Source of the DNA: Sedimentimonas flavescens
GTDB lineage: Bacteria > Pseudomonadota > Alphaproteobacteria > Rhodobacterales > Rhodobacteraceae
Direction: 5' to 3'
NCBI RefSeq assembly: GCF_019264375.1
Contig: NZ_JAHVAI010000001.1
Span: forward strand, 1-64,000
Length of the DNA stretch: 64,000 nt
The position numbers and the translations under genes are program-made. Positions 13,663-61,927 of the stretch are shown piece by piece; position 1 is the first letter of the stretch, and every line of letters starts with the position of its first letter. A model generated the notes under the pieces. The model did not search any database. It was not told where the DNA came from and saw nothing but the letters and a program-made list of their open reading frames with translations.

Positions 13663-15528
<1,866 letters not shown>

Positions 15529-48025: not shown

Positions 48026-48337
48026 ATGCACACGCTCGACCAACTCGCTGCGACCGTTGCCTCGCGCAAGGGGGCGGACCCGGACAGCAGCTGGACCGCG
48101 AAGCTCTTCGCCAAGGGTCCCGAGAAATGCGCCGAGAAATTCGGCGAGGAGGCCATCGAGGCGATCATCGCAGCCGCCAAGAACGACCGCGAGAACCTGG
48201 TCTATGAGGCCGCCGACGTGCTTTATCACCTCGTGGTCATGCTGGCCGCGCGGGATGTGAGCCTGAACGAGGTTCTGGCCGAGCTAGAAAGGCGCGAGGG
48301 CACCTCGGGCATTGCCGAGAAGGCCGCGCGCGGCTGA
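48026..48337 (+). CDS. hisE: Phosphoribosyl-ATP diphosphatase
   Basis: A 103-residue all-helical MazG-like pyrophosphohydrolase for the second step of histidine synthesis. The metal-binding [29 protein letters not shown] (in pieces from about 47 to 75) carries the EExxE and ExxD motifs. Short stand-alone form, as usual in Alphaproteobacteria. It follows hisF directly, so hisA-hisF-hisE form a unit. Confidence 0.94.
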
Positions 48338-48389
48338 GAGGTTGCATCCGCCGCCCTGCCCGGCAATGTTGGGCCAAACGGAGGCGGAG

Positions 48390-48692
48390 ATGAGCGACAC
48401 ACCCAAAGGATACTGGATCGGCCATGTCACGGTCGATGATCCGCAGGCCTATCAGGCCTACCGCGAGGCCAATGCCGTGGCATTCGCGAAATACGGGGCG
48501 CGGTTTCTGGTGCGCGGCGGTGCGCAAGAAGTCGTCGAGGGCGATCAGCGCCCGCGCTCGGTGGTGATCGAGTTCCCCTCGCTTGAGGCCGCGCGGGCCT
48601 GCTACCTCAGCCCAGAATACCAGCGCGCGCTGGCGCTGCGCACGCCGGTCTCGGACGCCGATCTGAGCATTGTCGAGGGTTATCTTGGGTAA
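48390..48692 (+). CDS. DUF1330 protein, first of a tandem pair
   Basis: A 100-residue ferredoxin-like fold protein of the DUF1330 (dimeric alpha-beta barrel) family. It shows GYWIGHVTVDDPQAYQAYRE, the RFLVRGGAQEVVEG strand and VVIEFPSLEAARACYLSPEY, all family landmarks. The function is unknown. ATG 48390 follows GGAGGCGGAG. The next gene encodes a clear paralogue and overlaps its end. Confidence 0.85.
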   Translation: MSDTPKGYWIGHVTVDDPQAYQAYREANAVAFAKYGARFLVRGGAQEVVEGDQRPRSVVIEFPSLEAARACYLSPEYQRALALRTPVSDADLSIVEGYLG

Positions 48693-48987
48693 GGCGAAGG
48701 GCTACTGGGTGGCCCATGTCACCGTGTCCAATCCGGCGGGTTACGCCGCCTACCGTGCCATGGCCGCCCCCGCGATCGCCGCGCAGGATGGGCGCATTCT
48801 GGCGCTTGGCGGGGCACAGCAGACCGTCGCCGGGCAGATGCGACCGCATACCGTCATCGTCGAGTTCCCCGATCTGGCCGCCGCGCGGGCCTGCTATTTC
48901 GGCGCGGCCTATCAGGCCACCATTGCCGCGCGCGACGCCTCGGCCGAAGTCGATCTGAGCATCATCGAAGGCCACACGATTGCCTGA
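48685..48987 (+). CDS. DUF1330 protein, second of a tandem pair
   Basis: About 100 residues, closely matching the upstream protein over its whole length (GYWVAHVTVSNPAGYAAYR, LALGGAQQTVAG, VIVEFPDLAAARACYFGAAY, DLSIIEGH). The start is not ATG: TTG 48685, overlapping the previous stop by eight bases with GAGGG upstream, is the best choice; TTG 48670 is an alternative. The pair is a local duplication, probably translated together. Function unknown. Confidence 0.75.
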   Translation: MGKAKGYWVAHVTVSNPAGYAAYRAMAAPAIAAQDGRILALGGAQQTVAGQMRPHTVIVEFPDLAAARACYFGAAYQATIAARDASAEVDLSIIEGHTIA

Positions 48988-49027: not shown

Positions 49028-49474
49028 ATGTTGAAATCGCTCTTCGGCCTTTTGGCCAATCCCCGCCCTGAACCCGCCGACAGCGACGATGTCGAACTGG
49101 CCCTGGCTGCGCTGCTGGTGCGGCTTGCGCGTTCGGACGGGCTGTATGAGGAAAGCGAGCAGGCTCATATCGACCGCCTCCTGATCGCGCGCAACGGCAT
49201 CGGCCCGTTTGAGGCCACCGCGCTGCGCCGCCGCGCCGAGGCGCTGGAGGACGAGGCTGCAGACACCGTGCGCTTTACCCGCGCGCTGAAGGACGGGATC
49301 GCCCATGACGACCGCATGAGCGTGATCGAGGCGCTGTGGGAAGTGGCGATGGCCGATGGCGCGCGCGGGGCCGAGGAAGACTCGCTCATTCGGCTTGCCG
49401 CAAACCTTCTTGGGATCAATGACCGCGATTCGGCACTGGCCCGACAGCGCGTGATCGCACGGCTCGATGATTGA
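49028..49474 (+). CDS. TerB-like (tellurite resistance B) family protein
   Basis: A 148-residue all-helical acidic protein with the TerB repeat pattern: LALAALLVRLARSDGLYEESE near residue 27 and VIEALWEVAMADGARGAEED near 97, each a helix followed by a D-G metal-binding turn and acidic residues. Such proteins occur widely outside tellurite operons; the job is unclear. It stands alone after the DUF1330 pair. Confidence 0.8.
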   Translation: MLKSLFGLLANPRPEPADSDDVELALAALLVRLARSDGLYEESEQAHIDRLLIARNGIGPFEATALRRRAEALEDEAADTVRFTRALKDGIAHDDRMSVIEALWEVAMADGARGAEEDSLIRLAANLLGINDRDSALARQRVIARLDD

Positions 49475-49513
49475 TGATGCCCCCGGTCATTTTGACCAGG
49501 CAAGGCTGGACTT

Positions 49514-49585
49514 TTGATCAATACCCTCACGTCACCCATCATTGTGCCGTTGCAATCGCACAAGAAATCGCGCCAACTTGATCAA
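49514..49585 (+). promoter_or_regulatory. Two TTGATCAA palindromes upstream of the amine transporter operon
   Basis: The perfect 8-base palindrome TTGATCAA occurs at 49514-49521 and again at 49578-49585, 64 bases apart (near six helical turns), ending 22 bases before the GTG of the transporter ATPase. A third copy lies at 57828-57835 before the related catabolic operon. I take them as candidate operators; the regulator is unknown. Confidence 0.55.
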
Positions 49586-49606
49586 ACGGACAAAGAGAAA
49601 CCCATA

Positions 49607-50383
49607 GTGACCAACAACGCGCCCGTCATCGAGATCCGCGATCTCCATAAAAGCTATGGCCAGCTCGAGGTGCTGAAAGGCGTCTCCATCCACGCCGAAA
49701 AGGGCCAGGTTATCTCCCTTATCGGCTCCTCGGGGTCGGGAAAATCGACGCTTCTGCGTTGCTGCAACCTGCTTGAGGACAGCCAGAGCGGCGAGATCCT
49801 GTTCGAGGGCGAGGCGGTGAAATGGACGGGCGAGGGCCTGCGTCGCCACCCGGCCGATCGCGCGCAGGTCACGCGCTTTCGCACCAACCTCGCGATGGTG
49901 TTCCAGCAGTTCAACCTCTGGTCCCACATGAGCGTTCTGCAAAATGTGATGGAGGCCCCCGTCACCGTCCTCGGGCGTCCCGCAGACGAGGTCGAGGTGC
50001 TGGCGCGCAGCCTGCTCGACAAGGTGGGCATCGGCGACAAGGCGGACAACTGGCCCGCGCAGCTTTCGGGCGGTCAGCAGCAACGCGCAGCCATCGCGCG
50101 CGCGCTCTGCATGCAGCCCGAAGCGCTCTTGTTCGACGAGCCGACCTCGGCGCTCGACCCGGAATTGCAGCAAGAGGTGGTCAAGGTGATCAAGGACCTC
50201 GCGGCAGAGCACCGCACCATGATCCTTGTGACCCATGACATGCGGCTGGCCGCCGATGTGTCCGATCACGTCGTCTTCCTGCACCAGGGCCGCATCGAAG
50301 AGGAAGGCCCGCCCGCCGCTCTCTTCGGGGCGCCGAAATCAGAACGCCTGCAACAGTTCCTGTCGGCCACCGCGCCGGCCTGA
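49607..50383 (+). CDS. Amino-acid-type ABC transporter ATP-binding protein
   Basis: A 258-residue ATPase of the polar amino-acid uptake (HisP/GlnQ/ArtP) class. Walker A GSSGSGKST near residue 40, Q-loop VFQQFNLWSHM near 100, signature LSGGQQQRAAIARAL near 152, Walker B LLFDEPTSALDPE near 174 and VTHDMRLA near 208. The QFNLWSHM Q-loop form is typical for His/Arg/octopine-type importers. The start is GTG 49607; the longer ATG reading contains the palindromes and no ribosome-binding site. First gene of a five-gene operon ending in a GS-family ligase. Confidence 0.9.
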   Translation: MTNNAPVIEIRDLHKSYGQLEVLKGVSIHAEKGQVISLIGSSGSGKSTLLRCCNLLEDSQSGEILFEGEAVKWTGEGLRRHPADRAQVTRFRTNLAMVFQQFNLWSHMSVLQNVMEAPVTVLGRPADEVEVLARSLLDKVGIGDKADNWPAQLSGGQQQRAAIARALCMQPEALLFDEPTSALDPELQQEVVKVIKDLAAEHRTMILVTHDMRLAADVSDHVVFLHQGRIEEEGPPAALFGAPKSERLQQFLSATAPA

Positions 50384-50419
50384 AACCAACAAAACAAACT
50401 CAACAGTGGAGTCTTGACT

Positions 50420-51130
50420 ATGAAGAAGCTGATCCTGACGGCCGCCGCGCTGGCGCTCAGCACCGGATTTGCGATGGCCGATACCGTGCGCATAGGCACC
50501 GAGGGCGCCTACCCTCCCTACAACTTCATCAACGACAAGGGTGAGGTTGACGGGTTCGAGCGCGAACTGGGCGATCTGCTGTGCGAAAAAGCCGGCCTGA
50601 CCTGCGAGTGGGTGACGAACGAGTGGGACTCGATCATCCCCAACCTGCTCTCGGGCAACTATGACACCATCATCGCCGGCATGAGCATCACCGACGAGCG
50701 GATGGAGACCATCGACTTTACCCAGAACTACATCCCGCCGGCGGCCTCGGCCTATGCGGCGCTGTCGGCCGATGCCGATCTGTCGGGCGTGGTCGCAGCA
50801 CAGGTGGGCACCATCCAGGCCGATTACGTTGCCAAGTCGGGCGCGACGCTGCTTGAATTCGCCACCCTCGACGACACCGTCGCCGCCGTGAAGAACGGCG
50901 AGGCCGACGCGGTCTTCGCCGACAAGGACGCGCTGGCGCCCTTCGTGGGCAGCGACATGTCCTGGGCGGGTGACGACGTTCCGCTTGGCGGCGGCGTGGG
51001 CATCGGTATGCGCAAGTCGGATGCCGAGCTGAAGGGCAAGTTCGACGCCCTCATCACCGAGATGAAGGCCGATGGTTCGCTCAACGCCATGATCAAGAAG
51101 TGGTTCGGCGACGAAGCCACCGTATTCTGA
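50420..51130 (+). CDS. Periplasmic amino-acid/amine-binding protein (family 3)
   Basis: A 236-residue binding protein. Signal peptide 1-20 (ends GFAMA), then RIGTEGAYPPYNFIND, the classical family 3 start, with GFERELGDLL and the ligand segment NLLSGNYDTIIAGMSITDER near residue 75-95. A Cys pair (LLCEKAGLTCEW) matches basic amino-acid binders such as ArgT/HisJ. ATG 50420 is preferred to the upstream TTG; GGAG lies nine bases away. It selects the substrate for the two permeases that follow; a cationic amino acid or amine is likely. Confidence 0.9.
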   Translation: MKKLILTAAALALSTGFAMADTVRIGTEGAYPPYNFINDKGEVDGFERELGDLLCEKAGLTCEWVTNEWDSIIPNLLSGNYDTIIAGMSITDERMETIDFTQNYIPPAASAYAALSADADLSGVVAAQVGTIQADYVAKSGATLLEFATLDDTVAAVKNGEADAVFADKDALAPFVGSDMSWAGDDVPLGGGVGIGMRKSDAELKGKFDALITEMKADGSLNAMIKKWFGDEATVF

Positions 51131-51175
51131 GAGTGACGGGCGGGCGGCCCTCGCGCCGCCTGCCCGGTTCCCGCC

Positions 51176-52057
51176 ATGTTTGAAAGCTGCGCTGATCCAT
51201 CTCAACTCGAGGGACTGAACTGGTTCCTGTGCTACCTGACCTCGGGCAAGCACATGCTGTTCTATACCTCGTTCCTTGTCGTCATGGCACTGATGGTCAT
51301 CACGGCTCCGATCGCGCTCATGTTCGGATTTGGCGGGGCGCTGGCTGCGCGCAGCCACGTGGCGCCGCTGCGCTGGCTCGGCAAGGGCTATACCGCCATG
51401 GTGCGCGGCGTGCCCGATATCATCTTCTTCCTCTTCGTGCCGGTTGCGATGGACCAGGGGCTCGAATACCTGCGCAACCTGTACAAATGCCCGCCCACGG
51501 ACGCACCGATCTGGGCCAATAACGAATTCAACGTCTGCGCCGCGGCCAAGCTGCCGCTTTCGACCAGCCCGCAGTTCTGGCACGAGGCCTATGGCTTCGC
51601 CCTTGCGGTCATCGCCTTCTCGATCGTGTTCGGCGCCTTTGCCGCCAACGTGCTGTACGGCGCAATGAACGCCGTGCCCCGCGCGCAGCTGGAAACCGCC
51701 GAGGCCTATGGCATGTCGCCCAAACAGGTGCGCCGGCGCATCCTGATCCCGCAGATGTGGACCTATGCGCTGCCCGGCCTGTCGAACCTGTGGTTGATCC
51801 TGATCAAGGCCACGCCGCTGCTGTTCCTGCTGGGCGTGGAGGACATCGTCTATTGGGCGCGGGAACTGGGCTCGACCAAATCCGCGATCTACGACTATCC
51901 GCACCCGGACTGGCGCGTGTGGTATTTCCTCGTGCTGCTGTTCTACTACCTCGGCATGACCCGAATTTCCGAGATCTACCTCGGACGTCTGTCGGCGCGG
52001 CTGTCGCGCGGGCAGGCCACGATGGCCGGTGAAGCGATGCGAAAGGCGGGCGCATGA
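51176..52057 (+). CDS. Amino-acid-type ABC transporter permease, first subunit
   Basis: A 293-residue inner-membrane permease of the HisM/HisQ class. Membrane segments lie near residues 20-50, 60-100, 140-175 and 205-260; the EAA-type loop ETAEAYGMSPKQVRRRILIP lies near 178-197. A polar stretch of about 40 residues (100-140) with two cysteines sits in the first periplasmic loop. It overlaps the second permease by four bases (ATGA). Confidence 0.9.
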   Translation: MFESCADPSQLEGLNWFLCYLTSGKHMLFYTSFLVVMALMVITAPIALMFGFGGALAARSHVAPLRWLGKGYTAMVRGVPDIIFFLFVPVAMDQGLEYLRNLYKCPPTDAPIWANNEFNVCAAAKLPLSTSPQFWHEAYGFALAVIAFSIVFGAFAANVLYGAMNAVPRAQLETAEAYGMSPKQVRRRILIPQMWTYALPGLSNLWLILIKATPLLFLLGVEDIVYWARELGSTKSAIYDYPHPDWRVWYFLVLLFYYLGMTRISEIYLGRLSARLSRGQATMAGEAMRKAGA

Positions 52058-52881
52058 GCTGCGTTGACATCATCGCCGACTACGGCCTGCGCTCGCTCGG
52101 GATCGGGGAACGCCTTCTGCCGCGCTCGGATTTCACGCTGTGCCACCAGTTTACGCTGATCGGTTCGGGGTTGATCTGGAACCTCTATTTCGGCGTTCTC
52201 GCGCTTGCCTTCGGCTTCTTCATGGCCACCGGCCTCGCACTGGCCAAGGCGGCCGAGAACCCGCTGCTGCGCAAACCGGCCGAGTGGTTCATCTTCGTCT
52301 TCCGCGGCTCGCCGCTCTTCATCCAGTTCTTCCTGGCTTATGAGGCGCTGGTGCTGCTGCCGAAGGCCGGGATCGATGTTTTCGGCATCACCATCCACAC
52401 CGCCTGGACCACCAAGGCCTGGGCGGGCGCACTGTTCGTGCTGTTCCTCAACACCTCCGCCTATGCCGCCGAGATCTTCTACGGCGCGTTGCGCTCGGTC
52501 CCGAAGGGCGACCTTGAGGCCGCCGACGCCTATGGCTTCACCGGCTGGAAAAAGTTCCGCAAGGTTGTCTGGCCGACCATGCTGCGGCTCGCCTGGCCGG
52601 CCTATACAAACGAGGCGATCTTTCTCTTCCATGCCACGACGCTGGTCTATTTCTCGGGCTTCCCGGCGTTCCAGCAGCGCGGCGATGCGCTTTATTACGC
52701 GAAGTTCTTCGCGGACAAGACCTTCAACCCATTCATCCCCTACCCGATCGCGGCCTTCTATTTCGTCTGTCTGACGCTGGCCCTGATCGCGGTATTCGGG
52801 GTGATCAACCGCCGCCTGAACCGGCATCTTCCGGGTGCGAGCCGCCCCAAACTGAAGGTCAGGCCGCAAATCATCAGGTGA
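52054..52881 (+). CDS. Amino-acid-type ABC transporter permease, second subunit
   Basis: A 275-residue partner permease. The segment FVFRGSPLFIQFFLAYEAL near residue 82 is the family-specific R-G-P/S-x-x-x-Q motif, and the EAA-type loop EAADAYGFTGWKKFRKVVWP lies near 152-171. It should pair with the gene product at 51176 to form the membrane channel. Five bases separate it from the GS-family ligase, so uptake and first metabolic step are co-expressed. Confidence 0.9.
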   Translation: MSCVDIIADYGLRSLGIGERLLPRSDFTLCHQFTLIGSGLIWNLYFGVLALAFGFFMATGLALAKAAENPLLRKPAEWFIFVFRGSPLFIQFFLAYEALVLLPKAGIDVFGITIHTAWTTKAWAGALFVLFLNTSAYAAEIFYGALRSVPKGDLEAADAYGFTGWKKFRKVVWPTMLRLAWPAYTNEAIFLFHATTLVYFSGFPAFQQRGDALYYAKFFADKTFNPFIPYPIAAFYFVCLTLALIAVFGVINRRLNRHLPGASRPKLKVRPQIIR

Positions 52882-52885
52882 GGAA

Positions 52886-54217
52886 ATGGACTGGCTGAGA
52901 GAGCACCCCGAGGTTCGCACCATTCGCGTGGCTGCGGCTGATCTCAACGGGGTCGCGCGGGGTAAGCGCATACCCGCTCGTTTTGCAGACAAGGTGTTCA
53001 CCGAGGGCACACGCTTTCCCTTTTCGGTGATGAACCTCGACATCTGGGGCGAGGACATTGAGGAAAGCCCGCTGGTTTTCGAGACCGGCGACTGCGACGG
53101 CCTTCTGATGCCCACCGAGCGTGGCTTCATGCCGATGCCCTGGCTTGAGGCGCCGACCGCGCTCTTGCCGATCTGGATGTTCCACATGGATGGCCGCCCC
53201 TATGACGGCGACCCGCGGCAGGTCCTGGCGCGCGTGATGGATCGCTACAAGGCGCTTGGCCTGACCCCGGTTGTGGCAACCGAACTGGAGTTCTTCCTGA
53301 TCGACGACTCGGGCAAGACGCTGCGCGTGCCGCCCTCGCCTCGCTCGGGCAAGCGCCGCACCGGCGGCGAGATCCTGAGCCTGCGGGCGCTCGACGCCTT
53401 CGACAATTACTTCACCGCGCTTTACGACGCCTGCGAGGCGATGGACATCCCTGCCGACACGGCGATATCCGAGGCCGGGCCGGGCCAGTTCGAGATCAAC
53501 ATGATGCATTCGAACGACGCGCTGAAGGCAGCCGACGATGCGTGGCTGTTCAAGATGCTGGTCAAGGGGCTGGCACGCAGCCACGGCTTTGCGGCCTCGT
53601 TCATGGCCAAGCCCTATGACCTGTGGTCGGGTAACGGAATGCACATGCATTTCTCGATCCTCGATAAGGCGGGCAAGAACATCTTCAACGACGGCTCCGA
53701 CAAGGGCTCGGACGCGCTGCGCCACGCGGTGGCGGGTTGCCTGGCCGCTCTGCCCGGCTCGACCCTGATCTTCGCGCCGCATGAAAACAGCTATGACCGG
53801 CTGGTGCCCAACGCCCATGCGCCCACCGGCATCGGTTGGGCCTATGAAAACCGTACCGCGGCGGTGCGTATCCCCGCCTCGGGGCCTGCCGCGCGGCGGA
53901 TCGAGCACCGCGTGGCCGGGGGCGACGTGAACCCTTACCTGATGATCGCTGCCGTACTGGGCGCCGCGCTGATCGGGATCGAGGACAAGATGACCCCGAA
54001 TGATCCGATTGCGGGCAACGCCTATGAGCAGGATCTGCCGCAACTGCCCGCGACCTGGAACCTCGCCATCGAGACCTTCGCGAACTGCGACTACATCAAG
54101 CGCATCTTCCCGCAGGAACTGGTCGCGAACTTCCTGATGACCAAGCGGCAGGAGGTCCACTACATGGCCGAACTGTCGGACGAAGAGCAGACCGAACTCT
54201 ACCTCGATACGGTCTGA
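52886..54217 (+). CDS. Glutamine-synthetase-family ligase (PuuA-like), first of two
   Basis: A 443-residue enzyme of the glutamine synthetase fold. ELEFFLID near residue 133, a Mg/nucleotide site in EAGPGQFEINM near 195 and NGMHMHFSILD near 250, and ASGPAARRIEHRVAGGDVNPYL near 330 are the conserved landmarks. The ADLNGVARGKRIP start is typical of gamma-glutamyl-amine ligases (PuuA/GlnA3-type), not of ammonia-assimilating GlnA. It probably joins glutamate to the amine imported by the genes upstream. A second paralogue lies at 59251. Substrate is inferred from context only. Confidence 0.85.
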   Translation: MDWLREHPEVRTIRVAAADLNGVARGKRIPARFADKVFTEGTRFPFSVMNLDIWGEDIEESPLVFETGDCDGLLMPTERGFMPMPWLEAPTALLPIWMFHMDGRPYDGDPRQVLARVMDRYKALGLTPVVATELEFFLIDDSGKTLRVPPSPRSGKRRTGGEILSLRALDAFDNYFTALYDACEAMDIPADTAISEAGPGQFEINMMHSNDALKAADDAWLFKMLVKGLARSHGFAASFMAKPYDLWSGNGMHMHFSILDKAGKNIFNDGSDKGSDALRHAVAGCLAALPGSTLIFAPHENSYDRLVPNAHAPTGIGWAYENRTAAVRIPASGPAARRIEHRVAGGDVNPYLMIAAVLGAALIGIEDKMTPNDPIAGNAYEQDLPQLPATWNLAIETFANCDYIKRIFPQELVANFLMTKRQEVHYMAELSDEEQTELYLDTV

Positions 54218-54228
54218 CGAACGATCCT

Positions 54229-54253
54229 CCGGGCCGCCAGTGTCGGGCGGCCC
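54229..54253. terminator. GC-rich hairpin between convergent operons
   Basis: GGGCCGCC (54231-54238) pairs with GGCGGCCC (54246-54253) with a seven-base loop. It lies between the GS gene and the minus-strand ATPase gene. No T-run, so only a weak candidate. Confidence 0.4.
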
Positions 54254-54255
54254 AC

Positions 54256-54999
54256 CTACTCGACCGTATGCGGCACCACGACCAGACAGGCATCGCGGTC
54301 GCGCAACAACTCGGGCGTCACGCACCAATGCGTTGCGACGCGCTCGGGCGTCAGCGCACCCTCGGGCGTGTCGTGGCAGATCAACCGCCCCTCGCCCAGC
54401 ACCATGACCCGGTCGCAAAACCGCGCAGCCAGCGTCAGGTCGTGCAGCGCCGCGATCACAGCAGTGCCGCTTTGCCGCGCATGGGTGCGCAACGCGGCCA
54501 GCGCGCCAAGCTGGTGATGCAGGTCCAGCGCCGAGGTGGGCTCATCGAGCGCCAGAAGCTGCGGATTGCGAAACAGCCGCTGCACCAGAAGAACACGCTG
54601 CTGCTGCCCGCCGGAAAGCGTGTTCATCCCGCGCGCGGCCAGTTCGGCCAGCCCGAAACGCCCAAGGATATCACGTGCCTGCGCGATCATCGCGGGCGGG
54701 ACGCTCCAGCCCAACCCTTCGCGCCGGCCTAGCAAGACGCAATCGAGCACTGACAGATTGGCCCGCACCGTGAAGCTTTGCGGCAAAAAGCCCACTGCGG
54801 CGCGATCGAGCACACGGCCCGCGCGACGCAGGATCGCACGCTCGGGCGAAAGCCCGGCGATGGCGCGCAGCAGCGTCGATTTACCCGCGCCATTCGGCCC
54901 GACGATGCCGGTCAGAGATCCGGCAGGCAGGCGCAATTCCATCGGTTGCAGAACCAGGCTACGTCCACGCCGCAGCGCCGGAAGGGTGATTTCGAACAT
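54256..54999 (-). CDS. FecE/BtuD-type ABC transporter ATP-binding protein
   Basis: A 247-residue ATPase of the iron-siderophore/haem/cobalamin importer class. Walker A GPNGAGKST near residue 35, signature LSGGQQQRVLLVQRL near 127, Walker B LALDEPTSALDLHHQ near 147 and AALHDLTLAARFCDR near 183, the last being typical of the FecE group. Its start overlaps the permease stop by one base. Last gene of the minus-strand import operon. Confidence 0.9.
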   Translation of the reverse strand: MFEITLPALRRGRSLVLQPMELRLPAGSLTGIVGPNGAGKSTLLRAIAGLSPERAILRRAGRVLDRAAVGFLPQSFTVRANLSVLDCVLLGRREGLGWSVPPAMIAQARDILGRFGLAELAARGMNTLSGGQQQRVLLVQRLFRNPQLLALDEPTSALDLHHQLGALAALRTHARQSGTAVIAALHDLTLAARFCDRVMVLGEGRLICHDTPEGALTPERVATHWCVTPELLRDRDACLVVVPHTVE

Positions 55000-56057
55000 C
55001 AGTTCCCCCTATGGGTCAGGATGACGGCGGCCAGCATCGGAATGCCAGCCACGGCGGTCACGATCCCGACCGGGATCGCCGCGCCCGAGGACAAGAGCTT
55101 GGACACCACAGAGGCCGAAACCAGGATCAGCGCCCCGGTCAGCGCCGCGAAGGGCAGCGCGAAGCGGTGATCCTCGCCCACCATCGCGCGGGCCACATGC
55201 GGCGCGATCAGCCCGACAAAACCGATCGTGCCGGTGAATGACACCGCCGCCGCCGTCAGTGCTGCGGTGATCAAGAAGACCCGGCGGCGCAGCGCATCGG
55301 TATCGAGCCCGAGGCTTTCGGCGTTTGCCTCGCCCATGCGCAGGGTCGTCAGCGCCCAGGTTTCGCGCGCGATCAGCGGCAGGCAGAGCGCAACGATCAC
55401 CCCCGCCGTCTTGACCGCCGTCCAGTTCGCTTTGAGCAGAGAGCCGAACAGCCAGAAGACGATCTGCTGCAAGACCTCGGGCGAGGCCATGAACTGCACC
55501 AGCGATTGCAGCGACTGGAAGAAGAACAAAACCGCGATGCCCGCCAGCACCAGAACCTCGGGCTGGCTGCCCTTGAGGCGCGCCACCAGCCAGACAAGCG
55601 CGGTCGCGCTGAGGGTTGCCACGAATGCGCAGGCGGGCGTCAGCAGCCAGCCGGGCACCGGCACCGCGAGCGCCGAGCCAAACATGATCGCAAGCGCCGC
55701 GCCAAACCCTGCCGCCGCCGAGAACCCCAGCGTGAAGGGCGAGGCCAGCGGGTTGGCCAGGATCGTCTGCATCATCAGCCCCGCCAGCCCAAGCGCGCCG
55801 CCTACGATCAGCGCCATCACCGTTTGCGGCAGGCGAATCTGGAACAGGATCGCCGCCGCCGCCCGGTCGGCGCCCTGCGGCCCGGCCAGAAAGGTCTGCC
55901 ACAGCGTCCCCGGCGACATCGCCGAGGGGCCGGTCATCAGATCAGCCAGAACCAGCCCGATCAGCAGAAGCAGGGCGGCGCCAACCGCCGCCCCACGCCG
56001 CGCAGACCGCGCCCGCCACGCCCGAACCGAAGTGTCGAGCCGGTCCTGCACGCTCAT
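54999..56057 (-). CDS. FecCD family iron/haem/B12 permease
   Basis: A 352-residue inner-membrane protein with about ten membrane segments, the BtuC/FecD fold. GGALGLAGLMMQTILANPLASPFTLGFS (in parts, about residues 85-112) is the classic FecCD signature, and GTIGFVGLIAPHVARAMVGEDHR near 270 is the loop that meets the ATPase. ATG 56057 overlaps the binding-protein stop (ATGA). A single permease gene implies a homodimer. Confidence 0.92.
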   Translation of the reverse strand: MSVQDRLDTSVRAWRARSARRGAAVGAALLLLIGLVLADLMTGPSAMSPGTLWQTFLAGPQGADRAAAAILFQIRLPQTVMALIVGGALGLAGLMMQTILANPLASPFTLGFSAAAGFGAALAIMFGSALAVPVPGWLLTPACAFVATLSATALVWLVARLKGSQPEVLVLAGIAVLFFFQSLQSLVQFMASPEVLQQIVFWLFGSLLKANWTAVKTAGVIVALCLPLIARETWALTTLRMGEANAESLGLDTDALRRRVFLITAALTAAAVSFTGTIGFVGLIAPHVARAMVGEDHRFALPFAALTGALILVSASVVSKLLSSGAAIPVGIVTAVAGIPMLAAVILTHRGN

Positions 56058-57148
56058 TTCAGCTGCGTCACAAATAGCCCATCCGCCATGACGGGCATCC
56101 ACTTGGCGTAGTAGTCGCTCAGCTCAGCCGCCGGATCGACATCGGCGAAGGCCTCGGGATAAAGCGCCTTGGCGATCGCACGGGCATAGACGAAATCCGA
56201 CAGCGTGCGGTTGCCGCCATGGTAGATGCCATAGACCTGCTTGCTACGCACCGCGGGCAGATCGGCCCAACCCGCGCGCGCGGCATAGGCGGCCATCTTC
56301 GGCTGCGCGGCCTCATCCGTGGCGCCGAAGCCCAAGAGCACCGCTTCGGGCTTGTTGAGCCATTCCGACCCCGCGAGCAGGATCACATCGGGTTGCTCTG
56401 CGATGACAAACTCGGGCGAAAGCGGCCCCCAGTTCTCGATCTGGCCCTTGGCGATATTGGCGCCGCCGACAAGGTCGATCACACCGGCCCACATCCCCTT
56501 GCCATAGCTGTTGCCCACCTCACCGGGGCCTTTCTGCGCAAGCTCGACATAGATCTTCTTGTTCGAAGGCCCCGCCTTGGCGATACGCGCGGCGGTGTCC
56601 TCGGTCTTGGCCTGATACATCTGCGCCAATTCCTCGGCGCGCTCGGGCTGGCCCATCACAGCGCCCAGAACCCGCGTGGACATCAGGTGCCGCTCAAGCG
56701 TCTGCGCGTTGTAATCGAGCGCGATCACCTTGATACCCGCATCCTCGATCTGCTTCACGCCCGGCGCGCCCAGAGACGCCGTCTGCCAGCTTGCCAGCAG
56801 CGCCACATCCGGCTTCGAGGCGATCAGCGCCTCGGCCGAAAAGCTGTTGTCATCGGTGCTGCCGAAATCGGGCAGGGTTTCCAGCGCCGGGAAGGCTGCG
56901 GTGTAGCGCTGCCACTGGCCCGGGCGCCAATCGGCCCAGGGTGCGCGCGAGAACGAAACGATCTTGGCGGCGCCCTCAGCGCCAGTCACGGCCAGGTAAT
57001 CCTCGTAATAAAAGCCTAGCGCCACGCGCTCGGGGACGCGTTCGAGGGTGACAGTACGTCCGTCCAGATCGGTCACGGTGATTTCAGCCATGGCGGGGGC
57101 CGTGGACATGAGCAGCGCCGACAGCGCCGCAAGTTTAGCGAGTTTCAT
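56054..57148 (-). CDS. Iron/haem/B12-type periplasmic binding protein
   Basis: A 364-residue exported class III binding protein. Signal peptide 1-21 (ends APAMA), then EITVTDLDGRTVTLERVPERV, the usual start of ABC iron-complex binding proteins, and two lobes joined by a long helix. Distinct points are FSRAPWADWRPGQWQRY near residue 70 and IYHGGNRTLSDFVYARAIAKALYP near 315. Ligand (siderophore, haem or cobalamin) cannot be told; no outer-membrane receptor gene is near. ATG 57148 follows AAGGAT. Confidence 0.85.
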   Translation of the reverse strand: MKLAKLAALSALLMSTAPAMAEITVTDLDGRTVTLERVPERVALGFYYEDYLAVTGAEGAAKIVSFSRAPWADWRPGQWQRYTAAFPALETLPDFGSTDDNSFSAEALIASKPDVALLASWQTASLGAPGVKQIEDAGIKVIALDYNAQTLERHLMSTRVLGAVMGQPERAEELAQMYQAKTEDTAARIAKAGPSNKKIYVELAQKGPGEVGNSYGKGMWAGVIDLVGGANIAKGQIENWGPLSPEFVIAEQPDVILLAGSEWLNKPEAVLLGFGATDEAAQPKMAAYAARAGWADLPAVRSKQVYGIYHGGNRTLSDFVYARAIAKALYPEAFADVDPAAELSDYYAKWMPVMADGLFVTQLK

Positions 57149-57266
57149 TTTGATATCCTTGGGTTGATCGCGGCGCCGCAGGCATGGCGGCACCGATATG
57201 CGCAATGAGCGAGCCGCAAGACGGCGCTCACGAGAACACGCCCGGCCATAGCGGCGGTTCAGCGGA

Positions 57267-57707
57267 TCAAGCCAGAGGGGGGGCGCGGGGCTGCGCGGGC
57301 CGCCATTCGGCGGCAACGATAGGCCGGGACACCGCCAGATCAGGAACGAAGGGCGCGAAACTCGCAGGGCTATGCGCCGCAAGCGCGGCATCCTGCACGG
57401 CCGCCAGCGCCAGCGTCACCGCAAGGCATTTCGATACTTCGTGGTTCTCGTCGGGAAGCGGCGCCTGATCGCTGACAGAACCGTCGGCGCGCATCCAGAT
57501 GTCGCGCGGCCCTTCGGGCGTACACAGCACCAGCCGGGTCGAGTCGGCATCGGCCACCCGCATCATCCCCTGCGGGACGATCCCCGAAAGGAACAGCGAC
57601 AGCAGCAGGACCATCGGCACCAGCCGCGCAAACAGCGCGCGCACCGCAAAGCCGCGCAGCTTGCGGGAGGCGGTGGGCCGAGGGTGATGCGCCTGTGCCA
57701 ATGCCAT
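57267..57707 (-). CDS. Small exported/anchored protein, DUF2946-like
   Basis: A 146-residue protein with a basic N-terminus and one hydrophobic segment (about residues 26-48), followed by a periplasmic part. LVLCTPEGPRDIW near 65 and HEVSKCLAV near 95 resemble the two-cysteine pattern of DUF2946 proteins, which often sit beside metal-uptake genes. It is upstream of the iron/haem/B12-type importer genes on the same strand with a 118-base gap, so it may be co-regulated and help metal handling. ATG 57707 has GGAAGG upstream. Assignment is tentative. Confidence 0.5.
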   Translation of the reverse strand: MALAQAHHPRPTASRKLRGFAVRALFARLVPMVLLLSLFLSGIVPQGMMRVADADSTRLVLCTPEGPRDIWMRADGSVSDQAPLPDENHEVSKCLAVTLALAAVQDAALAAHSPASFAPFVPDLAVSRPIVAAEWRPAQPRAPPLA

Positions 57708-57824
57708 GTGACCTTCCTGCCGCATAGGGTTACGCAGGAAGGCCCCGCGCCTCAAGCCTCTTGGACCGCCCTGCGGCGCTCCGACGCGGCCCGCCCGGTC
57801 AGCATCTCTTCGCTCAGATGAAAA

Positions 57825-57838
57825 TATTTGATCAAATT
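57825..57838. promoter_or_regulatory. TTGATCAA palindrome in the divergent region before the Puu-like operon
   Basis: The palindrome TTGATCAA (57828-57835), in an AT-rich setting that stands out locally, lies 73 bases before the amidotransferase start and 120 bases before the divergent DUF2946-like gene. The same palindrome occurs twice before the transporter operon at 49607. Candidate operator. Confidence 0.5.
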
Positions 57839-57908: not shown

Positions 57909-58589
57909 ATGCTGATCGGCATCCTGCAAACCGGCCAATCCCCCGATGTTCTTCGGGACGCGTCGGGCGACTACCCCGACATGTTCGCGCGCCTTCTGGC
58001 GGATCGCGGCCTGACCTTCCGCACCTATCACGTCGAGAACATGGAGTTCCCGGCCGATATCCACGAATGCGAGGGCTGGCTGATTACCGGCTCGCGCCAC
58101 GGTGCCTATGAAGATCATCCCTTCATCGCGCCGCTTGAAGACTTCATCCGCAAGCTCGTCGCAGCCAAGGTGCCGCTGGTGGGCATCTGCTTTGGCCATC
58201 AGATCATCGCGCAGGCGATGGGTGGCAAGGTCGAGCGGTTCGAGGGCGGTTGGGCCGTGGGCCCGCAGGATTACGACTTCGGCGGCGAGAAGATCACGCT
58301 GAACGCCTGGCACCGCGACCAAGTAACCGAGCGCCCCGAGGGGGCCGAGGTCGCCGGCTGCAACGAGTTTTGCGAGAACGCCGCGCTGGTCTATGGCGAT
58401 ACCGCCTTTACCGTGCAGGCCCACCCGGAGTTTCCCGACAGCTTCGTCGACGGCCTGATGCATACGCGTGGCAAGGGCCTCGTGCCCGATCCGCTGATGG
58501 AAGCTGCGCGCACGCGTCTCAACCAGCCCAATCAATCCGCAACCATTGCTGACCGGATCGCGGATTTCTTCCACAAGCCGCGGGGCTGA
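57909..58589 (+). CDS. Class I glutamine amidotransferase-like hydrolase
   Basis: A 226-residue stand-alone amidotransferase/peptidase-fold protein. The nucleophile cysteine is in VGICFGHQIIAQAMGG near residue 99, the histidine-glutamate pair in FTVQAHPEFPD near 176. LITGSRHGAYED near 60 is typical of the GMP-synthase-like group. In this setting, with PuuA- and PuuB-like genes, it may remove the gamma-glutamyl group, the job of PuuD, although it is not of the classic PuuD length. ATG 57909 follows GAGACGAC and the AT-rich palindrome region. Confidence 0.82.
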   Translation: MLIGILQTGQSPDVLRDASGDYPDMFARLLADRGLTFRTYHVENMEFPADIHECEGWLITGSRHGAYEDHPFIAPLEDFIRKLVAAKVPLVGICFGHQIIAQAMGGKVERFEGGWAVGPQDYDFGGEKITLNAWHRDQVTERPEGAEVAGCNEFCENAALVYGDTAFTVQAHPEFPDSFVDGLMHTRGKGLVPDPLMEAARTRLNQPNQSATIADRIADFFHKPRG

Positions 58590-58591
58590 TC

Positions 58592-59212
58592 ATGTATCGC
58601 CTGCCCGCCTTCGCCGAGACCGACCCCGAGCAGCTCAGCGCGCTGATCGCGCAGGCACCACTGGGGCTGCTGATTTCCTCGGGTCCGGCGGGCGTGATGG
58701 CGAACCCGATCCCCTTCCTGATCGAGGAACGCGCGGGCGGCCACGTCCTGCGCGCCCATCTGGCGCGGGCTAATCCGCAACTGGCGGAACTGGCTGCGGC
58801 CCCTCAGGTTCTGGTCGTGTTCCAGGCGGGCAACAGCTACGTCACGCCCTCGTGGTATCCTTCCAAGGCCGAGGCCGGAAAGGTCGTGCCGACATGGAAC
58901 TACGCCATGGTGCAGGTGCGCGGACAGGCGCGGCTCGATACCAGCACCGAATTCCTGCGCAACCAACTGGACGCCCTGACCGACCAGCAGGAAGGCGTAC
59001 GCGCGGACCCTTGGGCGGTTTCTGATGCGCCCGAGAGTTTCGTCGCCGCGCAAATGCGCGGGATTGTCGGGCTCGAGATCCTCGTCGAAACGATGGAAGG
59101 CAAGCTCAATCTATCGCAAAACCGGCCCGTCCAGGACCGCGTCGGCGTCCGCGCGGGCATGATGGCCGAGGGCGACCCGCTCTCCCGACTGATGCCAGAC
59201 CCTGGTGCGTGA
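58592..59212 (+). CDS. PaiB-like FMN-binding protein
   Basis: A 206-residue protein of the PaiB/FMN-binding split-barrel family. It has the signature YVTPSWYPSKAEAGKVVPTW near residue 88, where the W-Y and T-W-N-Y residues mark the fold, and LSQNRPVQDRVGV near the C-terminus. PaiB was first described in Bacillus as a negative regulator next to the polyamine acetyltransferase PaiA, which suits its position in an amine operon. Whether it binds DNA or acts as an enzyme is open. It starts two bases after the amidotransferase stop. Confidence 0.85.
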   Translation: MYRLPAFAETDPEQLSALIAQAPLGLLISSGPAGVMANPIPFLIEERAGGHVLRAHLARANPQLAELAAAPQVLVVFQAGNSYVTPSWYPSKAEAGKVVPTWNYAMVQVRGQARLDTSTEFLRNQLDALTDQQEGVRADPWAVSDAPESFVAAQMRGIVGLEILVETMEGKLNLSQNRPVQDRVGVRAGMMAEGDPLSRLMPDPGA

Positions 59213-59250: not shown

Positions 59251-60618
59251 ATGTCTTCGAACACCGACAACTGGCTCGATCAAATTCCGCAAGCTGCCCG
59301 TGACTATGTCGCCGGGCGCCGCCTCGATGAGGTTGAATGCATCGTCGCCGACGTCGCGGGCGTTGCCCGTGGCAAGGCCATGCCCGCCTCGAAATTCCAG
59401 TTTCAGGATCGCTTCTTCCTGCCGAACTCGATCTTCCTACAGACCATCACCGGCGAATGGGCCGAGAACCCGATCGGCGCCTTCACCGAGCCGGACATGA
59501 TCCTGACCCCGGATTATTCGACCGCGACCGCCGCCCCCTGGACCGCCGACGTCACGCTTCAGGTGATCCATGACGTGAACGACCAGCAGGGCAACCCGGT
59601 GCCGATCGCGCCGCGCAACGTGCTCAAGCATATCGTCAGCCTCTACGAGGCCGAGGGCTGGAAGCCGATCGTCGCGCCCGAGATGGAGTTCTTCCTTGTT
59701 GCGCGCAACCTTGACCCGAACCAGCCGATTATTCCGCCGATGGGTCGCTCGGGGCGGCGCGCGGCTGGCAAGCAGGCCTATTCGATGTCGGCTGTGGACG
59801 AATACGGCAAGGTGATCGACGACATCTACGACTTCGCCGAGATGCAGGGCTTCGAGATCGACGGCATCTTGCAGGAAGGCGGCGCGGGCCAGATCGAGAT
59901 CAACCTCGCCCATGGCGACCCGGTCGCGCTGGCGGACCAGATCTTCTTCTTCAAGCGCCTGATCCGCGAGGCCGCGCTGCGCCACGACTGCTTCGCCACC
60001 TTCATGGCCAAGCCCATCGAGGGCGAGCCCGGCTCGGCCATGCATATCCACCAGTCGATCATCAGCACCAAAACCGGCGAGAATATCTTCTCGGAAGCCG
60101 ATGGCGGTGAGAGCGAAGAGTTTCTCTATGCCATCGCGGGGCTGCAAAACCACCTGCCGGCGGTGATCGCGCTGCTGGCGCCTTATGTGAACAGCTACCG
60201 CCGCTACGTCCCGGATTTCGCGGCGCCGATCAACCTCGAATGGGGTCGCGACAACCGCACGACGGGCCTGCGGGTGCCGATCTCGGGGCCGGCCGCGCGG
60301 CGGGTCGAGAACCGTCTGGCGGGGATGGATTGCAACCCCTATCTCGGTCTGGCGGCGACGCTGGCCTGTGTTTATCTGGGCCTCAAGGAGCGCAAGATGC
60401 CGCGCCCCGAATGCCTGGGCGATGCCTATATGGGCGACACCGACCTGCCCTACAACCTGGGCGACGCGCTGGACATCCTGGCCGATTCCGCGCCGGTGCG
60501 CGAGGTGCTGGGGATCGAGTTCTGCACCGTCTACGAGGCGGTGAAGCGCAACGAATACAAGGAGTTCCTGCAAGTGATTTCGCCCTGGGAGCGTGAGCAC
60601 CTGCTGCTGAACGTGTGA
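59251..60618 (+). CDS. Glutamine-synthetase-family ligase (PuuA-like), second of two
   Basis: A 455-residue GS-fold enzyme. EMEFFLVARN near residue 148, the active-site segment EGGAGQIEINLAHGD near 210, GSAMHIHQSII near 265 and ISGPAARRVENRLAGMDCNPYL near 345 are conserved. It differs clearly from the paralogue at 52886 at the N-terminus and in length but shares the VAGVARGKAMP motif. It probably forms a gamma-glutamyl amide of a polyamine or other amine as the first step before the PuuB-like oxidase 4 bases downstream. ATG 59251 has GGAAAG eight bases upstream; ATG 59245 is a close alternative. Confidence 0.88.
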   Translation: MSSNTDNWLDQIPQAARDYVAGRRLDEVECIVADVAGVARGKAMPASKFQFQDRFFLPNSIFLQTITGEWAENPIGAFTEPDMILTPDYSTATAAPWTADVTLQVIHDVNDQQGNPVPIAPRNVLKHIVSLYEAEGWKPIVAPEMEFFLVARNLDPNQPIIPPMGRSGRRAAGKQAYSMSAVDEYGKVIDDIYDFAEMQGFEIDGILQEGGAGQIEINLAHGDPVALADQIFFFKRLIREAALRHDCFATFMAKPIEGEPGSAMHIHQSIISTKTGENIFSEADGGESEEFLYAIAGLQNHLPAVIALLAPYVNSYRRYVPDFAAPINLEWGRDNRTTGLRVPISGPAARRVENRLAGMDCNPYLGLAATLACVYLGLKERKMPRPECLGDAYMGDTDLPYNLGDALDILADSAPVREVLGIEFCTVYEAVKRNEYKEFLQVISPWEREHLLLNV

Positions 60619-60622
60619 TGCC

Positions 60623-61927
60623 ATGAACCTGCTTTTCGCGAATGACAAACCGGGCCACTACCCGGCGAGCTTCTATGCCGATACGCGGGATGCCGCGCCC
60701 GAACGGGCGGCGTTGCAAGGGGCGGTGCAGGCCGATGTCTGCATCGTCGGCGCGGGCTACACGGGGCTTTCGGCCGCGCTGCATCTGGCCGAGGCCGGGC
60801 GCCGCGTGGTCCTGCTCGAGGCGCACCGGGTGGGCTTTGGCGCCTCGGGGCGCAACGGCGGGCAGATCGGCTCGGGCCAGCGGCTTGAGGTGACCGAGCT
60901 TGAGAAGATGATGGGTAAGCCCGCCGCCCGGCGGCTGTGGGATCTGGCCGAAGAGGCTAAGGCGCTGACCTACGATCTGGCCGCGCGCGCAGGCGTGCCG
61001 ACATATCGCGGCATCGCCCATGCCGCGCTGAAGCCCTCCGAGGTCGCCCATGCCCATGAGATGGCCGAGCATCTGGCGACGCATTACGGATATGATCAAA
61101 TCACGCCGCTTGACCGTGACGGGCTGCGCGCGCTGATCCCGTCCGAGCGTTATATCGGCGGCGACATCGACCGTGGCGCGGGCCATGTGCATCCGCTGAA
61201 CCTGACGCTTGGCATGGCGCGCCTGGCCGAGGCGGCGGGCGCGGTGATCCATGAAACCTCGGTCGTGACCGGGATCGAACATGGCACCGGCACACAGAAA
61301 AGCCGCGTTCGAACCGCGCAAGGCCATGTCGAGGCCGAGCATGTGATTCTGGCCGCGAACGGGTATCTCGACCGGCTGGAACCCAAGGTGACCGCGCGGG
61401 TCATGCCACTCAACAACTATATCGTTGCGACCGAGCCCTTGGGGGAGCGCGCGCGCGAGTTGCTGACGGAGAACATCGCCGCGCATGACACCAAGTTCGT
61501 GGTGAACTACTGGCGCCTGCACGAAGACCGGCTGATCTTCGGCGGCGGTGAGTCGGTGACCTATCGCTTTCCGCGCGACATTGCCGCCAAGGCGCGGGTG
61601 CCGATGCTGCAGGTCTATCCGCAACTGCGCGACGTCAAGATTACCCATGCCTGGGGCGGAACGCTGGCGATCACGCTCAACCGGATGCCCTATTTCGGGC
61701 GGCCTTCGCCGAACTGCCTCTCGGCCTCGGGGTTCTCGGGGCATGGGGTGGCGCTGGCGACGCTGGCGGGCAAGCTGATGGCGCAGGCGGTGACCGCGAC
61801 GGGCGACGGGTTCGACGTGATGGCCTCGGTGCCGACCTATCCCTTCCCCGGCGGCGGCTATCTGCGTTGGCCGATCCTTGTGGCGGGGATGACCTTCTAC
61901 GGGTTGCGCGACAAGCTGGGGATCTGA
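60623..61927 (+). CDS. FAD-dependent amine oxidoreductase (PuuB-like)
   Basis: A 434-residue flavoprotein of the DAO/glycine oxidase fold. The FAD motif is DVCIVGAGYTGLSAALHLAEAG near residue 38, with GFGASGRNGGQIGSG near 73 typical of the gamma-glutamylputrescine oxidase group, then GAGHVHPLNLTLGMARLAE near 190 and HAWGGTLAITLNRMPYFG near 340. It should oxidise the amine end of the gamma-glutamylated substrate to an aldehyde with release of ammonia. Last gene of the operon. No aldehyde dehydrogenase (PuuC) or aminotransferase follows, so later steps must be encoded elsewhere. Confidence 0.88.
   Translation: MNLLFANDKPGHYPASFYADTRDAAPERAALQGAVQADVCIVGAGYTGLSAALHLAEAGRRVVLLEAHRVGFGASGRNGGQIGSGQRLEVTELEKMMGKPAARRLWDLAEEAKALTYDLAARAGVPTYRGIAHAALKPSEVAHAHEMAEHLATHYGYDQITPLDRDGLRALIPSERYIGGDIDRGAGHVHPLNLTLGMARLAEAAGAVIHETSVVTGIEHGTGTQKSRVRTAQGHVEAEHVILAANGYLDRLEPKVTARVMPLNNYIVATEPLGERARELLTENIAAHDTKFVVNYWRLHEDRLIFGGGESVTYRFPRDIAAKARVPMLQVYPQLRDVKITHAWGGTLAITLNRMPYFGRPSPNCLSASGFSGHGVALATLAGKLMAQAVTATGDGFDVMASVPTYPFPGGGYLRWPILVAGMTFYGLRDKLGI

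Follow-up and report, generated by a model that had tools for sequence, protein, structure and literature searches.

Two amine-type operons share a palindrome

The stretch analysed here comprises the first 64,000 nucleotides of contig NZ_JAHVAI010000001.1 of Sedimentimonas flavescens (hereafter, the window). Two operons within it, one encoding an ABC importer with a glutamine-synthetase-like ligase (GS1) and the other a glutamine amidotransferase (GATase), a PaiB-type protein, a second such ligase (GS2) and an oxidase, are each preceded by the palindrome TTGATCAA (Table 1). The sites, gene order, conservation, co-occurrence with a regulator and domain architecture described below were computed. 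From these data the palindrome very probably serves as operator for a GntR-FCD regulator of the VanR type. The gene of this protein lies on another contig, and the protein would govern polyamine uptake and breakdown, control its own gene and probably act as a repressor.

Gene content and neighbours suggest that the substrate of the pathway is a gamma-glutamylated amine. The periplasmic binding protein of the importer scored 159 bits with TIGR01096, for which the cut-off is 256. The start of GS2 is taken from the orthologue in genome G007, of the sister species (protein beginning MSS; L070), the open reading frame itself opening at 59209.

Table 1. Operator-like sites, genes of the two operons and the regulator gene (window coordinates unless a contig is named)
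Feature	Position	Strand	Remarks
Site A, operator-like	49513–49522	.	TTTGATCAAT, 9/10; ends 84 nt upstream of ABC ATPase start
Site B, operator-like	49577–49586	.	CTTGATCAAA, 9/10; ends 20 nt upstream of GTG 49607
ABC importer ATPase, polar amino-acid type	49607–50383	+	PF00005; GTG start, at which orthologue alignments begin
Periplasmic binding protein family 3, Lys/Arg/Orn-like	50414–51130	+	PF00497; below curated cut-offs
ABC permease 1	51176–52057	+	PF00528
ABC permease 2	52054–52881	+	PF00528
GS1, glutamine-synthetase-like ligase	52886–54217	+	PF00120
FecCD-type uptake operon	54256–57755	-	FecCD permease, ABC ATPase and periplasmic-binding-protein genes; one open reading frame weakly DUF2946-like (below cut-off)
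Site C, operator-like	57826–57837	.	perfect ATTTGATCAAAT, upstream of GATase; its 10-mer (57827–57836) ends 72 nt upstream of ATG 57909
Class I glutamine amidotransferase (GATase), putative PuuD-like role	57909–58589	+	PF00117
PaiB/FMN_bind_2 protein	58592–59212	+	PF04299
GS2, glutamine-synthetase-like ligase	59251–60618	+	PF00120
FAD-dependent oxidase, DAO family, putative PuuB-like role	60623–61927	+	PF01266
GntR-FCD regulator gene (outside window)	C12:215494–216144	-	divergent from potFGHI

Exact copies of TTGATCAA lie at 49514–49521, 49578–49585 and 57828–57835, and an exact count returned no further copy in the window, as the initial annotation had reported. Its view that this is statistically striking holds in that fewer than one copy is expected (0.53 per window in dinucleotide shuffles), and is weakened in that three or more copies arise in 3 of 100 shuffles; the count by itself is only modestly unusual and constitutes modest evidence. 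One-mismatch words number 26, versus 14.4 expected. Across the whole genome (3.38 Mb) there are 31 copies, versus about 28 scaled from the window rate, and by our own reading 21 of the 31 are intragenic, 5 precede operons for amines or amino acids and 5 are intergenic elsewhere. Since this is the chance level, the count was dropped as evidence.

It is the longer palindrome, and not the 8-mer, that is informative. The genome holds three copies of TTTGATCAAA, each upstream of an amine or amino-acid operon, namely the GATase operon of the window, aapJ (C4:87928) and the divergent gap between the GntR-FCD gene and potFGHI (C12:216236). Random scatter, which the initial annotation had named as an outcome that would refute it, is half true of bare TTGATCAA. 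Because TTGATCAA is scattered at about chance frequency, the operator is best written ATTTGATCAAAT, of which site C is the sole copy within the window. The FNR/FixK consensus is TTGAT-N4-ATCAA; a site of this type was rejected, as the spacing of the palindrome does not match.

The palindrome at the promoter of a GntR-FCD regulator gene

The copy at C12 supplies what had been proposed from the window, a helix-turn-helix gene elsewhere whose own promoter carries the palindrome. Downstream of the GntR-FCD gene lies a putrescine-type aminotransferase gene, and downstream of the pot genes lies one for a DAO-family oxidase. The Pfam search of the protein returned only an N-terminal winged helix (PF00392, 49.6 bits, cut-off 27) and a C-terminal FCD domain (PF07729, 72.2 bits, cut-off 24.3), and no XRE-family DNA-binding domain. 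The best NCBIfam model, NF008504 (cut-off 225), scored 93 bits. A MocR-type regulator was rejected, as the protein has no aminotransferase domain.

The regulator was modelled from a 31-sequence alignment led by the sister protein (L153, 96% identical), with pLDDT 92.7 and pTM 0.88. The effector domain of the model has six helices (residues 77–101, 104–123, 126–142, 149–171, 180–188 and 192–215) and not seven, the feature by which the VanR group is set apart in the excerpted text of PMC7797058. N133, H137 and H180, which could supply part of a metal-binding effector pocket as in the VanR group, are invariant across the 31 sequences. The nearest solved fold is McbR/YncC from Escherichia coli (PDB code: 4p9f; TM 0.89, 27% identity, phmmer 2.6e-19), a likeness that does not imply orthology.

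Promoter conservation was assessed at the best 80 of 144 regulator relatives in named records, nearly all from Rhodobacterales with a few titled Alphaproteobacteria, Sphingomonadales or Hyphomicrobiales; three of these loci (L153–L155) are the same contigs as in genomes G007, G012 and G013 of the window's genus. In the stretch spanning 300 nt upstream and 30 nt downstream of the aligned start of the gene, 66/80 loci contain TTGATCAA and 5/80 the runner-up palindrome, and at least 8 of the 10 positions of TTTGATCAAA are matched in 77/80. Within these 77 the core is preceded by A in 91% and followed by T in 69%, giving the consensus ATTTGATCAAAT; the flanking A played no part in site selection. 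In some relatives, including Rhodobacter capsulatus, whose regulator orthologue at L166 stands at 66%, TTTGATCATC replaces the usual word. The site before the regulator gene is likely an autoregulatory signature, and repression of its own promoter would be predicted.

Co-occurrence of regulator and site

Orthologues of the GATase and the ABC ATPase are present in all 18 genomes of the genus, and the regulator (at least 61% identity) in 11. A GATase-upstream site (9 or 10 of 10 positions, within 250 nt) is found in 10 of the 11 regulator-bearing genomes versus none of the seven without the regulator, where the best match is 7 (Fisher p 0.00025, without correction for kinship). Four second GATase hits, from three regulator-bearing genomes and one regulator-less, were left out; none has a 9/10 site. 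The GATases of G011 and G015 are 81% identical to that of the window species, yet both genomes lack regulator and site, and five site-bearing species are more distant (73–75%). The regulator-less genomes (G001, G006, G008, G010, G011, G014 and G015) have kept GATase and ABC ATPase without the GATase site.

By our own reading of 38 sites in 14 genus genomes, 24 of 31 in regulator-bearing genomes and none of seven in regulator-less genomes are linked to amine or amino-acid genes; the 24 include three aapJ, four aldehyde dehydrogenase and two aminotransferase-like cases. A reversed-word control gave 14 matches across the 18 genomes.

The survey was widened to 198 genomes of 197 genera in the family, with the regulator called at E 1e-55; at most 15 candidates were scored per genome, and some regulators may be missed. 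The regulator was found in 94 genomes. All 94 hold at least one exact TTTGATCAAA, versus 68 of the other 104 (Fisher 4e-12), a comparison uncontrolled for base composition, which probably differs among the genomes. At least a 9/10 site lies within 1.5–1.7 kb upstream of GATase in 37/53 regulator-bearing genomes versus 1/36 others (p 3e-11), a stretch that reaches the GS1 start where GS1 precedes GATase, and within 200 nt in 16/53 versus 1/36. These figures cover 89 genomes and the best-scoring of 166 GATase hits, so that the exclusion of lower-scoring orthologues may introduce bias; G167 was dropped for insufficient upstream DNA. The tracking of this GntR-FCD protein by the site across genomes is supportive of the earlier suggestion that a single regulator serves both the import and the breakdown of a gamma-glutamylated amine.

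Genes adjoining the site

Twelve genomes yielded 69 sites, of which 43, from eight named genomes, were read (including 11 of the 13 sites of G024). We read 20 of the 43 as amine-linked, with targets GntR/potF, GntR-spuC, GS1, GATase, ABC ATPase, oxidase, aldehyde dehydrogenase, class III aminotransferases and agmatinase. The agmatinase scores above its curated cut-offs; the aldehyde dehydrogenase falls below all 25 curated cut-offs listed. GS2-like (57–59%) and oxidase-like (54%) genes stand in the regulator's own neighbourhood at L160 and L223, as does an oxidase-like gene at L200.

The copy of TTTGATCAAA before aapJ of the general amino-acid ABC transporter (G000:C4:87928; L029:7929–7938) is kept in G007 and G017, a possible link between polyamine control and general amino-acid uptake. 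At L057 (G013) and L071 (G012) a site precedes a gene identified by eye as class III aminotransferase-like, and at L071 a third GS-like gene, at 37% to GS1, comes next; a further amine pathway may possibly be under the regulator there. TTTGATCAAA also precedes a long secreted-protein gene, by eye a peptide-type binding protein, at L068 (G007) and L075 (G013).

Cluster history and sites A and B

The starts of the ABC ATPase and GATase genes are 4.7–4.9 kb apart in 12 of the 18 genus genomes. The window species and G007 have 8.3 kb between them and G005 has 6.6 kb; in three genomes they lie on separate contigs. In four genomes in which both ends were seen (L059, L062, L074, L079), GS1 is directly upstream of the site and GATase. 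The extra stretch in the window, between GS1 and GATase, is the FecCD-type uptake operon, which on account of this spacing looks inserted into the polyamine cluster. This arrangement is most simply read as a single ancestral ABC-GS1-[site]-GATase cluster that the FecCD-type operon divided in this lineage; sites A and B would then provide separate control for the detached ABC/GS1 half. As the two operons belong to a single cluster in 12/18 genus members, they are not independent witnesses. Upstream of the ABC/GS operon lie two tandem overlapping DUF1330 genes (48312–48987) and then a TerB-domain gene (49028–49474).

It is unlikely, though conceivable, that sites A and B are chance words and that site C is the sole real operator. 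Both are weaker than site C at 9/10 each, three 8-mers are reached in 3/100 shuffled windows as noted above, and in the remaining 16 genomes of the genus no 9/10 word was found before the ABC ATPase, so that the tally is 2 of 11 regulator-bearing genomes (the window species and G007) versus none of seven regulator-less. The 8/10 words before the ABC ATPase in G005 and G009 are at positions different from A and B. Against chance, the pair stands immediately before one operon, and the word of site A recurs in G007, shifted one base upstream, with an 8/10 counterpart of site B at the same 64-bp spacing. In addition, the more distant Celeribacter neptunius has an exact site before the ABC ATPase orthologue (L258).

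As to conservation before orthologous operons, which had been proposed as a check, the site is kept before GATase in 10 of the 11 regulator-bearing genomes of the genus, and before ABC/GS at the 9/10 level in one sister species only. The 64-base spacing was correctly described as close to six helical turns (6.1 at 10.5 bp). Cooperative binding or looping at A and B remains a guess, because the sister keeps the spacing with a second copy matching at only 8/10.

Repression or activation, and known systems

A distinctly less probable alternative is that the GntR protein binds the palindrome as an activator. The ten GATase sites of the genus begin 82–133 nt before the start codon, a distance compatible with activation. 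Of the 16 near GATase sites in other genera, however, ten have their first base just 21–25 nt before the start codon, where an activator would be unlikely, and the VanR regulator Atu1419 from Agrobacterium fabrum is, in the excerpted text of PMC7797058, an autorepressor on 10-bp palindromes. Repression therefore appears more likely than activation by analogy with Atu1419 and from these near sites, and it is also suggested by the position of site B, which ends 20 nt before its start codon.

The likeness to Atu1419 extends to a winged helix-turn-helix with FCD, six C-terminal helices (in our model) and a 10-bp palindrome in the promoter region of an autoregulated gene (predicted to be so here), as well as second and degenerate palindromes. 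Atu1419 represses its own promoter via 10-bp palindromes plus a degenerate copy, and its authors propose from their data that it loops DNA as a tetramer (PMC7797058, in excerpt). The two differ in operator (ATGTATACAT versus TTTGATCAAA here) and in function (hydroxycinnamate catabolism versus polyamine-type genes here). Atu1419 structures match the regulator model at 20–21% identity and TM 0.53–0.59 among the matches listed.

As in the puu regulon of E. coli, a single regulator would serve gamma-glutamylation-type polyamine genes; the repressor there, PuuR, is of the XRE family, in contrast to the GntR-FCD protein here (PMC5320631, in excerpt). MocR-family regulators likewise place a GntR-type DNA-binding domain over GABA or putrescine genes in some bacteria, with an aminotransferase-like sensor domain where the present protein has FCD (PMC5320631). 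In the excerpted account of the Rhodobacter sphaeroides network, the GntR regulators described concern uronate-type and TCA genes (PMC4344238). A full-text literature search, with RegPrecise and most subscription journals outside its scope, found among the entries and passages listed no GntR-FCD regulator and no mention of this motif tied to polyamines. The regulon assignment is apparently new, a prior description being possible, and the regulator is of a known kind.

Ownership of the site

That another transcription factor owns the site and controls the polyamine genes together with gntR, the GntR protein being a mere neighbour of one target, is highly improbable. The evidence is all correlative, and the same genome encodes two GntR paralogues (40% and about 37–38% identity). 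The presence of the site, however, tracks this GntR across genomes, and in G005 and at L205 it persists at the regulator gene although potF is not adjacent. The paralogues were rejected as site owners, since GntR relatives at 39–42% remain in each of the seven regulator-less genus genomes and so cannot explain the sites. The 38% paralogue was also rejected because the gap of its own polyamine cluster holds direct repeats and no TTTGATCAAA.

This second, paralogous cluster (L378:6463–16367, contig C60 of the same genome) comprises GATase (54%), potIHGF (48–62%), oxidase and GS (52%), and is divergent from the 37–38% GntR paralogue and an aldehyde dehydrogenase gene. In its gap there are two copies of TTGTGATAG, at 13940 and 13960, a spacing of 20 bp.

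A purely chance or compositional origin of all the palindromes, for which the genomic TTGATCAA count (about as composition predicts) could be cited, is scarcely credible, being contradicted by conservation at orthologous promoters with variable flanks (80 loci) and by the co-occurrence tests.

Several observations weigh against assigning the palindrome to a polyamine regulon under the GntR-FCD protein. Within the window species, bare TTGATCAA is at chance frequency over the 3.38-Mb genome (31 copies), and sigma-70 promoter scans near both operons called no promoter. Sites A and B are lineage-specific within the genus, and G005 carries the regulator without a GATase site. In the family survey, the 68 regulator-less genomes with exact TTTGATCAAA include one with 38 copies (G155); 16/53 regulator-bearing genomes have no 9/10 site within 1.5–1.7 kb of GATase, and regulator-less G124, listed as 77% complete, has the exact 10-mer before GATase. 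Of the 43 sites read, 23 are not amine-linked, although three of these (L259, L260, L278) adjoin ABC genes that may be of polyamine type; the solute-binding-protein-like product of L259 had no NCBIfam match at 1e-20. Finally, GS1 (196.7 bits) and GS2 (175.5 bits) fall short of the gamma-glutamylputrescine synthetase model NF045547 (cut-off 650), so a different amine is possible.

A candidate polyamine regulon

We infer that the GntR protein binds the palindrome, that it represses and that its effector is a polyamine-like amine. A GntR dimer would bind ATTTGATCAAAT at its own promoter, shared with potF, before the GATase-PaiB-GS2-oxidase operon and before aapJ, and, in the window's lineage, also the two weaker sites spaced 64 bp apart before the ABC/GS1 operon. 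The target genes would be repressed as long as the FCD domain has bound neither a polyamine nor an early catabolite.

A broader reading, in which a polyamine regulon spans the Rhodobacterales and one operon of a split cluster gained a looped operator pair, is tentative and somewhat short of an even prospect. The regulon on ATTTGATCAAAT would then cover putrescine import, transamination and gamma-glutamylation, with agmatine hydrolysis in some lineages and general amino-acid import in the window's genus. The detached ABC/GS1 operon would have gained a helically phased operator pair, between which a tetrameric regulator could conceivably loop the DNA.

Among Rhodobacterales, polyamines are a notable source of nitrogen and carbon. 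Since its regulator is named, its operator is given to 12 bp and its targets are listed from many genera, the proposed regulon is directly testable, and it would help to give roles to the glutamine-synthetase-like ligases in these clusters.

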